Of a stretch of 42,712 bases of DNA, positions 34,893 to 39,496 are shown in pieces. The notes beneath the pieces were generated by a model. The model saw only the letters and a list, made by a program, of their open reading frames with translations, did no database searches and was not told the DNA's origin. A program made the translations under genes and the position numbers. Source of the DNA: Acidobacteriota bacterium (GTDB taxonomy: Bacteria > Acidobacteriota > Terriglobia > UBA7540); assembly GCA_902812365.1 (NCBI GenBank), contig CADDZC010000030.1, positions 1 through 42,712 of the forward strand, read 5' to 3'. The first letter of the stretch is position 1. Each line of letters opens with the position of its first letter.

Positions 34893-35825
34893 TCACCGAG
34901 CGCTTGGGTAATAGACGCCGCGTTTCAAAAGTACGACCGGACCGACCAGCGTCAGTTCTCCGCTCCTCCTCCAGCTCACTTCCAACCGTCCGGCGGACGT
35001 GTGCACCTTCACCTCCCGGCCGGTCAGTCCGTTCAATACCGCGGCTACCACGGCCGCACAACTTCCCGTTCCTGATGACCTCGTCTCGCCGACGCCCCTC
35101 TCCCAGAACCGCACGGCAATGTCCTGACGGGAAAGGACCTTGACGAACTCCACGTTCGTTCGGTTCGGAAACAAGGGATGAGTTTCGATCTCACGACCGA
35201 TGATTCGCCATTGGATCGTTCGAAAATCGGTCACGAACAAACTGCAATGCGGATTGCCAATCGAGGTGATCGTCACATCAAATTCACCCTGCTCGGTCCG
35301 GAGTGGAAAGCCCACAACCGGGATGTCAACATCACGGCTGGCGAAAGGAATCTTTGGGGGGTCAAAAACGGGCTCACCCAGATTGACGCGAAATCGCCAC
35401 CGCTTCTTCCCAGCTGTCAGGGTGGTAATTGTTTTGACACCCGAGACGGTCTCAATGCTGAGCTTTTGCGTCCGGTTTCTCTTGATTTGGAAGATGAACG
35501 CTGCCGCGCACCGTATGCCGTTTCCGGACATTTCCGGCTGGCTGCCATCGGCGTTGAAAAACCACACTTGGGCGTCGTGACGCCGATCGCGAGGTGGCCA
35601 CACGACGATAAGGCCATCGGCGCCGAGCCCCCGGCGCGGATTGCACATGAGGCGCGTCAAGCTCGAGAGGTGGTCGTTCGCGCCCCTCGTGAACGGACCC
35701 TCCCTCCCCTTTAGGTCTGTCCATCCCAAGCCCTTGAGAAGGTCGCTCCCGTTCACTACAATCCATGTATTACTGAGCCCATGGAACTTCGCAAACGGAA
35801 TTTTAGTTCGAGCTCGAAGCGGCAT
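34893..35825 (-). CDS. dapF: Diaminopimelate epimerase homologue with Ser in place of both catalytic Cys
   Basis: The fold is that of DapF, which converts LL- to meso-diaminopimelate for lysine and peptidoglycan. In the 310 residues I see KFHGLSN, GLGADGL, FFNADGSQPEMSGNGIRC, SIGNPHC and ERGVGETRSSGTGSCAA. In canonical DapF the two acid/base cysteines sit in the (M/Q)CGNG and ACG(T/S)G motifs; here both positions are serine (Ser100 and Ser251), with codons TCC and TCA. The usual GND near the N-terminus reads SNT. The rest of the protein is well preserved, so this is not a decaying gene. It may epimerise a different substrate, work with reduced activity or be a variant clade. Upstream start at ATG 35825. 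Confidence 0.8.
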   Translation of the reverse strand: MPLRARTKIPFAKFHGLSNTWIVVNGSDLLKGLGWTDLKGREGPFTRGANDHLSSLTRLMCNPRRGLGADGLIVVWPPRDRRHDAQVWFFNADGSQPEMSGNGIRCAAAFIFQIKRNRTQKLSIETVSGVKTITTLTAGKKRWRFRVNLGEPVFDPPKIPFASRDVDIPVVGFPLRTEQGEFDVTITSIGNPHCSLFVTDFRTIQWRIIGREIETHPLFPNRTNVEFVKVLSRQDIAVRFWERGVGETRSSGTGSCAAVVAAVLNGLTGREVKVHTSAGRLEVSWRRSGELTLVGPVVLLKRGVYYPSAR

Positions 35826-35917: not shown

Positions 35918-36037
35918 TTACGGTGACCAGGACAAACTGGGATACTTCAACGGTCGACCTGCGAGGGTGAGCTGGCCCGATCGATCCACCATTTCGACGA
36001 TATCGAGCCGCAGCCCGCCCGGTATCCTCAAACTCAC
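35918..36037 (-). CDS. Possible 39-residue ORF coupled to the GT-C gene
   Basis: A GTG at 36037 overlaps the stop of the upstream glycosyltransferase gene as GTGA. The frame runs 39 codons to TAA at 35918-35920; the product begins MSLRIPGGLRLDIVEMVD and includes SGQLTLAGRPLKYPS. The composition is protein-like, and GGAAG lies about 4 nt upstream. No family is recognised. It could be a real small protein, a remnant of a longer gene or chance. Confidence 0.35.
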   Translation of the reverse strand: MSLRIPGGLRLDIVEMVDRSGQLTLAGRPLKYPSLSWSP

Positions 36038-37647
36038 TCGCTTCCGATCTCCCGCCGGTAAATCTGCACGGCCTCTTCCCCAGCAAAATGAAAATCGGCG
36101 ACACGCACAAAATCGTTAAAAGCTCTCGGATAGGCGCGCATCAGTTCATCGACCGGATCTCCTTCTCCGCGGATAACCCACCCAACCCAAGGACTGGCAT
36201 TGACCTGGAGCCGGTTCCAGTACTGGCGATTCATTTCCGTCAGAGTTCTCCGATAGTCGATGCCTACCTGAGGCATGACACACGGGTACTTCCCCGCAGC
36301 CATCAAAATGACCTGACCATCGAAGTGAGCACGTAGGTATTGGATGATCGACTGCTCATCCTTCGATCGGCAGGGCGTATTGAGAATGGCCTCCTTGGCA
36401 ACCACCAGTTCGCTCGCGCCTCTTCGTGCCATGGAAATATCTTGGAACAGAACGATGGCGACCAGCACCGGGAGCATTGCCCATCGTGCCCAAAACGGAA
36501 GTTCGGCGCTGAGCAAAAAGGTAGGCCAAAGGCTCATGGCGGGCAGCATTTCGAGACCATAGCGCAGGTTGTAATACGTGTGAGGAAACAAGGTTGGCAC
36601 GTAAATCGGAACGCCGGCATGAGCCATTGATTCAACATAGAACGCCAAGGGGACCAGGAACAGGAGCGCCGCCGATCGCCGTCCACGACGGCGGCGATCG
36701 GCAATCCAGGCAACGACTCCTAGCACGGCCAGCTCCAGCGGCCACACGCCGATCACTAGCTTCAAATCTTCAATATAGTAGCGTGTCGACAGCAGTAGGC
36801 TGCCGTCCGTAGGATATCGAAAGCCGGTGGTGGCCAGTTGGTGAGCGTAGATGGCTCGAGCTGAGTACGGGCCCTTATAAAACTCGAGCGGATTGCCGAA
36901 TCGCCAGGCGTTGTGAGCGACCCACAGCAGAGGCCCCGCCGCGGAAATCACAGAGAAGACGACCGCCCGGCGAAAACGAACCGTCCACGTTCCCCGGCTA
37001 ACCCACAGCACGAATAGCGCCGCAAAGGGTAACAAGAACCACCCGTCGTAACGCGTCCAACTCCCCAAGAATGCCGCTACCGACGCCAAAACCAAGGGCC
37101 CCCAACGTTGCAACTGTTGAAAGCAAAACAATTCATAAACCATCAGGACGGCCCACATGATAGCCAGCGGTTCCGTGAGCGGCGTGGAGGCAGCGTAGAG
37201 CATATTGGGCGCCAGCACGAACCCGGTGAGGGCCAACCATCCCGCCGCCCGGGTACCGTTCATTTTTGTCGCGAGTCGGAAAAGGAACCATCCGGAAACA
37301 GCGAAGGCGGCTTCGGACACCAGGCTTCCACCTAGCCCCGTGCGCCACAGATGGTCGTTCATGGCGAGTGGTCCTACCAAGACGTGAAACAGTGGGAGCC
37401 ACACGCTGCCAATCTCAGCGTAGCCGGGAGCAAGGGAGTCCGTCAACCGCCGCGCGCCTTCCATGTGGGCAATCGCGTCGCCGTAAATGTTAGTGAGGCC
37501 CCGGCTGTAAAAGAAATGCAGGCCCCCCAAAGCCGCACCTATGATTACGGCTCCAGCAACTGCGTCGTGGGCACGATCCCGGCATGCGTTCCGCGAAGAA
37601 TAGGCGAAAGTCGCCGAGCCTGATTGTTTGCAGGCAGGCTCAGACAT
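36034..37647 (-). CDS. GT-C (family 39-like) membrane glycosyltransferase
   Basis: A 537-residue polytopic protein with about ten hydrophobic segments. Near the N-terminus GLTNIYGDAIAHMEGARRL provides the conserved acidic residue expected in the first periplasmic loop of PMT/ArnT-like enzymes. Later features are LTEPLAIMWAVLMVYEL, SWTRYDGWFLLP and a C-terminal soluble domain of roughly 120 residues. These enzymes use lipid-linked sugars and act on the periplasmic side. Donor and acceptor are unknown. The start overlaps the PfkB-type kinase gene by 8 nt (ATGTCTGA), indicating translational coupling. Confidence 0.75.
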   Translation of the reverse strand: MSEPACKQSGSATFAYSSRNACRDRAHDAVAGAVIIGAALGGLHFFYSRGLTNIYGDAIAHMEGARRLTDSLAPGYAEIGSVWLPLFHVLVGPLAMNDHLWRTGLGGSLVSEAAFAVSGWFLFRLATKMNGTRAAGWLALTGFVLAPNMLYAASTPLTEPLAIMWAVLMVYELFCFQQLQRWGPLVLASVAAFLGSWTRYDGWFLLPFAALFVLWVSRGTWTVRFRRAVVFSVISAAGPLLWVAHNAWRFGNPLEFYKGPYSARAIYAHQLATTGFRYPTDGSLLLSTRYYIEDLKLVIGVWPLELAVLGVVAWIADRRRRGRRSAALLFLVPLAFYVESMAHAGVPIYVPTLFPHTYYNLRYGLEMLPAMSLWPTFLLSAELPFWARWAMLPVLVAIVLFQDISMARRGASELVVAKEAILNTPCRSKDEQSIIQYLRAHFDGQVILMAAGKYPCVMPQVGIDYRRTLTEMNRQYWNRLQVNASPWVGWVIRGEGDPVDELMRAYPRAFNDFVRVADFHFAGEEAVQIYRREIGSE

Positions 37648-38545
37648 CGAAATGTGTCATTTCCTTGAATTCATTGAAGCGCGCATCGATGTCGCTCCAT
37701 GCCAGGCTTAACAGACCTTCCAGGCCGAACCGTTCCACGGCGAAGCTGGCCATCACGGAGCCATAGACCAGCGCCCGACGCAGGTTCGGGGGGCTCAAGT
37801 CGTTCATGCGCGCCAGATGACCCATAAATCCACCGGCAAATGTATCGCCCGCGCCCGTCGGATCGAGCACCTCCTCCAGAGGGTAGCCCGGCGCAAAAAA
37901 AATACTGTCGTTTTGGAACAAGCACGAGCCATACTCGCCACGCTTCACCACGACCGTCCTGGGACCAAGAGCCCGGAGCGCTGCGGCCGCTCGCTTGAGG
38001 TGTCTAAAACCCGTCAGCAACTGCGCCTCCGTTTCGTTAAGTATCACCATGTCCACCGCGGCAAGCGTCTCTTTGAGATCGTCCAGGGCGCCGTTAATCC
38101 AGTAATTCATCGTGTCACACGCCACCAGCTTCGCGCGCGGTAGCTGGCGGCGGACGTGAAGTTGCAGTCTGGGATGAATATTGCCCAGGAAAACATACTC
38201 GCTCGTAAGATAAGCAGACGGAATCTTGGGTTGAAAGTGCTCGAAGACGTTAAGTTGTGTTTCGAGGGTCCGAGCTTCATTCATATCGCCGCTGTACTCG
38301 CCGCGCCAGCGGAAAGTCCTGCCCGCAGCACGTTCCAGGCCCTGAGTGTCGATGGGACGGTTTTTGAAGACTCGCATCTGGTCGTCGCCGAAGTCTTCAC
38401 CCACTACGGCCAGCACGTTAACCGGCGCAAAGTAGCTGGCGGCCACCGAAAAGTAGCTGGCCGAGCCTCCTAAAACCTCATCCGCCTGGCCGTACGGAGT
38501 CTTAAGGCTGTCAAAAGCCACCGACCCGACCACGAGCAAGGACAT
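37640..38545 (-). CDS. PfkB-family sugar or nucleoside kinase
   Basis: A 301-residue ribokinase-fold enzyme. It has the N-terminal LLVVGSVAFDSLKTPYG, GGSASYFSVAASYFA in the substrate lid region, NETEAQLLTG and the anion-hole/catalytic motif DPTGAGDTFAGGFMGHL with its catalytic Asp. Many acidobacterial and cyanobacterial genomes place such a kinase next to mtnP. That context hints at phosphorylation of a ribose or nucleoside compound from methylthioadenosine or adenosine salvage, but the substrate cannot be read from sequence. The ATG at 38545 with GGAAAGAG upstream is preferred over a longer frame that reads into the mtnP spacer. Confidence 0.82.
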   Translation of the reverse strand: MSLLVVGSVAFDSLKTPYGQADEVLGGSASYFSVAASYFAPVNVLAVVGEDFGDDQMRVFKNRPIDTQGLERAAGRTFRWRGEYSGDMNEARTLETQLNVFEHFQPKIPSAYLTSEYVFLGNIHPRLQLHVRRQLPRAKLVACDTMNYWINGALDDLKETLAAVDMVILNETEAQLLTGFRHLKRAAAALRALGPRTVVVKRGEYGSCLFQNDSIFFAPGYPLEEVLDPTGAGDTFAGGFMGHLARMNDLSPPNLRRALVYGSVMASFAVERFGLEGLLSLAWSDIDARFNEFKEMTHFDV

Positions 38546-38635
38546 CAATGTTCTCTTTCCGCACCTTTGATTTTGAAAGGTCGCCGCGCCTCTTCGGCCA
38601 TAACACAACCCTCGGCGAACGACCAGCAATCTCTG

Positions 38636-39496
38636 CTAGAGATAGCTTCCCACGATCAGGCGGAGTCTCTTCTTCGTCGCCGCGGGAATCTTTCGAGGAT
38701 CGGTCAGGATGGCGTGAGCCAACGCCGACCTACACTTGCAATGGCGCTCGGCCGGAATCGTCCGTACAGCCGCCCGCAGAATCTTCTGGGCATTCTCGAC
38801 GTTTTTATTCAGACACTCAATCACCTGCTCGACGGTGACGGCGTCGTGGCTCGGGTGCCAGCAGTCGTAGTCGGTCACCATAGCGAGCGTCGCGTAACAC
38901 ATCTCCGCCTCGCGGGCTAATTTGGCTTCCTGCAGGTTGGTCATGCCGATCAGGTCCATGCCCCAGGCACGGTACGTCTGTGATTCGGCCTTGGTCGAGA
39001 AGGCCGGACCTTCCATGCAAACGTACGTTCCGCCCCGATGGTAATTGCAACCAGTCACGGCGCAAGCGTTCGCCAATGCGTCCTGCAGCACCGGACACAC
39101 CGGGTCAGAAAAACTGATGTGGGCCACGAGGCCGCGCCCGAAGAACGTTGAGTCTCGGCCCTGGGTGCGATCAAAGAACTGGTCCGGCAGCACCATGTCC
39201 AGCGGCCGGTAGTCTTCGCGCAGCGAGCCGACGGCGCTGACGGCAACAATGCGCTCAACGCCCAGCTTTTTCATGCCATAGATGTTGGCCCGGAAGTTCA
39301 GCTCCGATGGCAGCAGAACGTGACCACGTCCGTGCCGCGCTAAAAACGCCACCTGGCGGCCTTCAAGTTGCCCGAGCACGAACAGATCCGAGGGCTTCCC
39401 GAAAGGGGTCGTCACCCTGACCTCACGCCGGCGGTCGAGGTCTGCCATCTGGTAAAGACCACTTCCACCGATGATGCCAATCTCCGCTTGGCGCAT
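38636..39496 (-). CDS. mtnP: S-methyl-5'-thioadenosine phosphorylase
   Basis: MtnP cleaves methylthioadenosine with phosphate to adenine and methylthioribose 1-phosphate. The 286-residue protein shows [10 protein letters not shown] at the start, [55 protein letters not shown] and [19 protein letters not shown], all purine-nucleoside-phosphorylase family 2 signatures. The MTA-specific choice over inosine or guanosine rests on overall resemblance and is likely. It lies 22 nt after the metallo-hydrolase gene and 90 nt before the PfkB-type kinase gene, and other mtn genes (mtnA, mtnB) are absent here. Confidence 0.92.

Follow-up and report, generated by a model that had tools for sequence, protein, structure and literature searches.

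The window, namely the whole stretch of 42,712 nucleotides of contig CADDZC010000030.1 that was analyzed (assembly GCA_902812365.1), carries a gene for a protein of the diaminopimelate epimerase (DapF) type in which serine stands at both positions of the catalytic cysteines, hereafter called the Ser/Ser protein (table 1). Along the whole gene the minus strand is a single open frame, and stop codons break up the plus strand; the coordinates given for it in the first-pass annotation are right, and the strand, absent from that annotation, is minus. The two serines lie within the motifs NADGSQPEM-S-GNGIRC (Ser100) and GETRS-S-GTGSC (Ser251). Both direct reading and alignment on Cys75 and Cys224 of the cyanobacterial (Anabaena) DapF structure 9mro bear out the initial claim that the catalytic cysteines are replaced by serines, with codons TCC and TCA.

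Table 1. Position of the Ser/Ser dapF gene, its key codons and its neighboring genes in the window
Feature	Position	Strand	Remarks
Ser/Ser DapF-type gene	34893..35825	-	encodes 310 aa from an ATG at 35825 to a TGA stop; PF01678 and TIGR00652 matches
Ser251 codon TCA	35073..35075	-	aligns with second catalytic Cys (Cys224 of Anabaena DapF, Cys217 of H. influenzae); phmmer alignment with 9mro
Ser100 codon TCC	35526..35528	-	aligns with first catalytic Cys (Cys75 of Anabaena DapF, Cys73 of H. influenzae); phmmer alignment with 9mro
Asn19 codon	35769..35771	-	equivalent to Asn13 in 9mro, ligand of the substrate alpha-amine; kept despite SNT for GND; role from PMC12039745
537-aa protein	36034..37647	-	no match in Pfam or NCBIfam; lies between dapF and the PfkB gene, same strand
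PfkB-family sugar kinase	37640..38629	-	PF00294; recurrent upstream neighbor of dapF in relatives
S-methyl-5'-thioadenosine phosphorylase	38636..39496	-	TIGR01694, 329 bits versus cut-off 274.85; recurrent neighbor

Family membership and predicted structure

By curated family cut-offs the protein belongs to DapF across its full length, for it matches PF01678 in the Pfam scan (E=1.9e-47, 160.7 bits versus a cut-off of 34.7) and the DapF equivalog TIGR00652 of NCBIfam over residues 10-305 (221.4 bits versus a cut-off of 114.65). It departs from DapF in the two catalytic cysteines, namely the thiol/thiolate acid-base pair, in place of which it has Ser100 and Ser251. Because both catalytic cysteine positions are serine, we have not filed the protein as canonical Cys/Cys DapF and class it instead as a Ser/Ser DapF-type protein, the putative function of which is most likely like that of DapF. 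Related families do not accommodate it: Pfam gives PF01678 alone, and neither the proline racemase superfamily (PF05544, with motifs MCGHG and SPCGTG) nor PhzF appears in the scan, identity to PhzF structures being 13-14% with a Z of about 26 versus 39 for DapF. The further deviation reported in the first-pass annotation, SNT in place of the GND motif near the N-terminus, is real but private to the window's sequence; GND is retained by nearly all relatives, and none of them has lost the ligand Asn19.

The AlphaFold2 model of the Ser/Ser protein (pLDDT 92.4, pTM 0.90, from 29 sequences) shows, by comparison with 9mro, the DapF fold of two domains in which two central helices oppose each other. 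Its best structural matches are this closed, aziDAP-bound DapF (Z 38.9, rmsd 1.9, 276 residues) and the Arabidopsis protein 3ejx, likewise closed and inhibitor-bound (Z 38.0); further matches include the O-ureidoserine racemase and other DapFs, among them the C73S and C217S mutants, and members of the proline racemase and PhzF families lie at Z of about 24-28. In the model Ser100 is positioned immediately before helix 101-115 and Ser251 immediately before helix 252-264, and helix N-termini are where the catalytic residues have been described in both DapF and HisR (PMC12039745, PMC11602996). The likeness to Cys/Cys DapF (9mro, 3ejx, H. influenzae 1gqz and E. coli 4ijz) thus extends to the fold (Z 32-39), the acid-base sites at helix N-termini, all the reported DAP ligands and the equivalog score. 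The differences are the replacement of both catalytic cysteines by serine and the residue at position 109, which is mostly Arg or Lys in the Cys/Cys forms and Ala in 86% of the Ser/Ser forms.

Partial precedents can be recognized for serine at these sites. The H. influenzae mutants C73S (2q9h) and C217S (2q9j) have serine at one catalytic site and their structures superpose on the model, but they are engineered single mutants, whereas the Ser/Ser form is a natural double replacement retained through the phylum. Acid-base serines are also found within the same fold superfamily in the proline racemase superfamily, which contains an active 4-hydroxyproline 2-epimerase with a Ser/Cys pair and a Ser/Thr trans-3-hydroxyproline dehydratase (PMC4113996). 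Unlike the Ser/Ser protein, with which they share about 12-16% identity, these enzymes act on other substrates and are Ser/Cys or Ser/Thr, none being described as Ser/Ser. The O-ureidoserine racemase DcsC (7vdy) has a DapF-like fold too (Z 36.2), with a different substrate. A search of open-licence papers found no natural Ser/Ser DapF, characterized or otherwise described. What is new, judged by sequence, is a natural Ser/Ser variant within a known DapF family that lacks the catalytic cysteines by which DapF is recognized.

Conservation of the active site

A redundancy filter at 72% identity left 104 Ser/Ser and 32 Cys/Cys representatives, the latter set including plasmid outgroup sequences. 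All 104 Ser/Ser representatives have N19, D70, N91, S100, G101, N102, N191, N224, E242, R243, S251 and G252, and at position 253 they have T or S. The residues of 9mro reported to bind aziDAP are Asn13, Asn66, Gly76, Asn77, Asn164, Asn197, Glu215, Arg216, Gly225 and Thr226 (PMC12039745), the counterparts of which in the phmmer alignment of the Ser/Ser protein are, respectively, N19, N91, G101, N102, N191, N224, E242, R243, G252 and T253. Every reported ligand is therefore identical at its aligned position, covering both ends of DAP; since all ten align as identical, the reported DAP site is complete, with just the two catalytic sulphurs replaced. Serine at both sites is encoded by TCN in most Ser/Ser members and by AGY in some, and this use of both codon types argues for selection acting on serine itself.

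A cysteine relocated within the active site was considered and rejected, because each of the cysteines is missing from part of the Ser/Ser set (C61 is present in 91%, C106 in 92%, C194 in 88% and C256 in 69%). Two of these four common cysteines are also common in Cys/Cys forms, several close relatives have another residue at position 61, and some Ser/Ser members have just two cysteines in the whole domain, as does L202 with one at position 61 and the other near the C-terminus. General cysteine loss or recoding was rejected as well, given that the Cys pair persists in proline racemase-like proteins, which separate genes encode in other genomes of this phylum.

The change of both canonical catalytic groups might also be taken as the mark of a non-catalytic protein that persists because it serves in structure or regulation, and E. 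coli DapF is reported to take part in the regulation of RppH by direct interaction (PMC4227774). Had catalysis been lost, however, one would hardly expect serine specifically at both sites and every ligand to persist in 104 out of 104 diverged sequences, and no other candidate was found for a step that the organism requires (see below), so that we give this explanation a very small chance.

Distribution and origin in Acidobacteriota

In the order to which the window's genome belongs, 34 of 40 genomes have a homologue, and the 29 same-order relatives that were read, which are ~50% identical with a mean column identity of 53%, all have Ser at both sites. The scan of GTDB genomes used a Ser-containing pattern and indicates the spread rather than the frequency of the form; its best 80 loci are essentially all from Acidobacteriota (Terriglobia, Blastocatellia and Aminicenantes) and are Ser/Ser at every readable site. 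Exceptions among these 80 loci are such by label, being named 'uncultured bacterium', 'Acidimicrobiia' and 'Candidatus Versatilivorator', and share acidobacterial motifs. The locus titled Acidimicrobiia (L065, VFZK01000250.1) has the same Ser/Ser dapF motif regions as L129 (G060) of the Terriglobia-class sample, and the record is probably misnamed.

Searches with PF01678 in unbiased samples gave matches in 120 of 151 genomes of the same class and in 290 of 297 genomes of the phylum. The loci read from these samples are mostly Ser/Ser; a minority are Cys/Cys, and L177 and L224 are Cys/Ser; the Cys/Cys minority lineage shows a different motif style (GVPH, ERGVEGET). When the 297 phylum genomes were searched with a profile built from 39 diverse Ser/Ser proteins, ~165 of them matched at E of 1e-65 or better, and all the members read of this group are Ser/Ser. 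The weaker matches, where read, are Cys/Cys or Cys/Ser, apart from some fragments and another, divergent group of Ser/Ser proteins; the reading of profile matches covered families other than f37, f28, f44 and some more.

These data bear on the possibility of a sequencing error, a local mutation or a pseudogene in one genome, for which one could invoke the fragmented assembly of 123 contigs and the SNT change private to the window's genome. The same two serines recur, nevertheless, in independent assemblies from many families of the phylum, including several single-contig genomes, and such phylum-wide conservation rules this explanation out for practical purposes. The first-pass annotation had already judged a sequencing error to be unlikely, an opinion strengthened by the invariance of Ser/Ser in the 29 same-order sequences and in all 104 representatives.

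We then considered the ancestry of the Ser/Ser forms with a tree of 69 rows, obtained by a quick search with the two trait columns masked and showing several long branches. In this tree 38 Ser/Ser rows cluster in a single group (support 90) and the remaining three form another group, close to the outgroups. Constraining all 41 Ser/Ser rows together is not rejected and gives a slightly better likelihood (p-AU 0.65); one origin of the Ser/Ser pair is consequently possible, and at most about two would be needed. Within the phylum, the Cys/Cys forms constitute a different lineage from the Ser/Ser forms. The check for a Ser/Ser clade that had been proposed at the outset was thus positive: the Ser/Ser forms make up one clade, two at the most, and within the data surveyed they are confined to Acidobacteriota.

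Several variants were observed alongside the common forms. In family f6 of the class sample, many genomes of high completeness are without any PF01678 protein (e.g. G043, G051, G058, G065 and G071). Four f6 relatives (G082, G125, G128 and G146) keep a PF01678 match, and the three that were read (L128/L155, L140 and L156) are Ser/Ser with the altered motifs SGNA, GNPQC, and NAGF or NIGF. A Cys/Cys DapF is accompanied by an extra Ser/Ser copy in the same genome in G332 (L256/L284), G217 (L257/L285) and G295 (L260/L287), some of these belonging to family f33. The divergent second Ser/Ser type (L272, L273 and L288) has the motifs ERSGNGLTIFS and FERGEGPTLSSGSSATAV, and a protein of this type is the sole PF01678 match in G063 and G324. 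The two Cys/Ser forms, L177 (G170) and L224 (G222), in which only the second catalytic Cys is replaced by Ser, belong to the acidobacterial GVPH lineage. Ten plasmid-borne DapF genes comprise eight Cys/Cys and two Cys/Ser, the latter being DapF-like genes of Sphingomonas morindae (L298) and Burkholderia stagnalis (L299) with the further changes GDD and CGSATRG.

Meso-DAP supply and proposed function

LysA decarboxylates meso-DAP, and the motif DNPR is a mark of the MurE that adds meso-DAP. Both proteins are encoded in the window's genome (96.7% complete, 123 contigs), LysA with 481 bits versus a cut-off of 297.9 and MurE with 525 bits and the DNPR motif. The PF01678 search returned one protein and no second DapF in this 96.7% complete genome; DAP dehydrogenase (Ddh) was not found in it, and its aminotransferases match the DapL model TIGR03540 with scores below the cut-off, a result that concerns the branch leading to LL-DAP (dapA, dapB, dapL or dapE) and not the epimerase step. 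The genome would need, in view of its LysA and DNPR-type MurE, the step from LL-DAP to meso-DAP, and neither Ddh nor a second DapF is there to bypass it. Because there is one DapF and no Ddh while LysA and a DNPR-type MurE are present, the Ser/Ser protein is, on gene content, the only visible source of meso-DAP. The suggestion of the first-pass annotation that the organism may obtain meso-DAP by another route is less likely, Ddh giving just two partial matches across the 297 phylum genomes.

LysA is found in 266 of the 297 phylum genomes and exceeds the cut-off in 168. Some LysA matches contain one or two internal stops (G223, G253, G302, G336, G342, G349, G356, G378 and G383, mostly of family f51), which may reflect a broken lysA or an alignment running past the true end. 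Open-licence papers yielded nothing usable on the peptidoglycan diamino acid of cultured Acidobacteriota.

From sequence comparison and the structural model, we consider it quite likely that the Ser/Ser protein is the organism's putative diaminopimelate epimerase, with Ser100 and Ser251 replacing the Cys/Cys acid-base pair. The C-alpha proton to be removed has a pKa of about 29. LL-DAP would be bound as in canonical DapF, its alpha-carboxylate being held between the two helix N-termini, with presumably the same closed, water-excluding pocket and carboxylate clamp. Ser100 and Ser251 would then be the opposed acid-base residues that invert C-alpha to produce meso-DAP for MurE and LysA, one serine acting as the base and the other as the acid with their hydroxyls transferring the proton, and one of the two might perhaps be an alkoxide, to the stability of which backbone NH groups and the helix dipole would contribute. 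The reaction carried out in vivo would be DAP epimerization. Single Cys-to-Ser mutants hinder catalysis in DapF and other members (PMC12039745), and in HisR, the histidine racemase with DapF fold, such a change greatly cuts turnover (PMC11602996); the natural Ser/Ser enzyme would consequently compensate for the lost cysteines somehow, or be slow.

Alternatively, the protein might act on another substrate or carry out another C-alpha reaction (e.g. an elimination, or a reaction with lanthionine or a different diamino diacid), meso-DAP being made by an unrecognized enzyme. Substrate change is known in paralogues of the DapF fold such as HisR (PMC11602996) and the O-ureidoserine racemase 7vdy, itself a close structural match, and some clusters of the proline racemase superfamily in which the Cys pair is replaced carry out a different chemistry, as in the Ser/Thr dehydratase (PMC4113996). 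The few genomes with both Ser/Ser and Cys/Cys forms (G217, G332 and G295) point in the same direction and count against the DAP-epimerase reading, as their Ser/Ser protein could act otherwise. So does the gene neighborhood, because the Ser/Ser dapF does not adjoin lysine genes and instead, of 80 loci, 32 have PfkB-like homologues nearby and 23 have methylthioadenosine phosphorylase, according to neighborhood clustering (which included loci L074 and L081). A membrane protein is also recurrent, and over the 80 loci these three neighbors give no clue to the substrate. (In G337 a Cys/Cys form lies directly after lysA.) Against another substrate stand the ligands at the distal end, by which the second amino acid of DAP is recognized (N91, N191, N224, E242 and R243) and which are invariant in the Ser/Ser clade, and the fact that an alternative meso-DAP enzyme was not found, yet LysA and a DNPR-type MurE are present; overall, we regard this alternative as unlikely. 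Of the other interpretations offered in the first-pass annotation, a changed mechanism gains indirect support from the loss of both cysteines, from the lack of a universal replacement cysteine and from the protein being the sole epimerase candidate, while another substrate is disfavored by the retention of the DAP ligands.

Extending the proposal of a Ser/Ser epimerase beyond the window's genome, we think it reasonably probable that much of the phylum Acidobacteriota makes meso-DAP by a natural, cofactor-independent and thiol-free Ser/Ser epimerase, the change having occurred once or twice and then become fixed. Immunity to an active-site disulfide could be a benefit of the serine pair, but we advance this only as a suggestion, since Ser/Ser forms are also present in lineages such as Aminicenantes, which are believed to be anaerobic. 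The disulfide in question forms between the catalytic cysteines of C. glutamicum DapF and constitutes its redox switch (PMC5296763).

Annotation rules that demand two cysteines would miss this enzyme in Acidobacteriota. As an antibacterial target and the textbook case of an enzyme with two cysteines, DapF has alkylating inhibitors that require the catalytic cysteines, as does its redox switch. If our proposal is true, the thiolate would be dispensable for DapF chemistry and the rule on how such enzymes abstract protons would need widening; Ser/Ser DapF would be predicted to be insensitive to thiol reagents and oxidation. It would also offer a natural system for cofactor-free removal of the C-alpha proton, in one of the most abundant phyla of soil.
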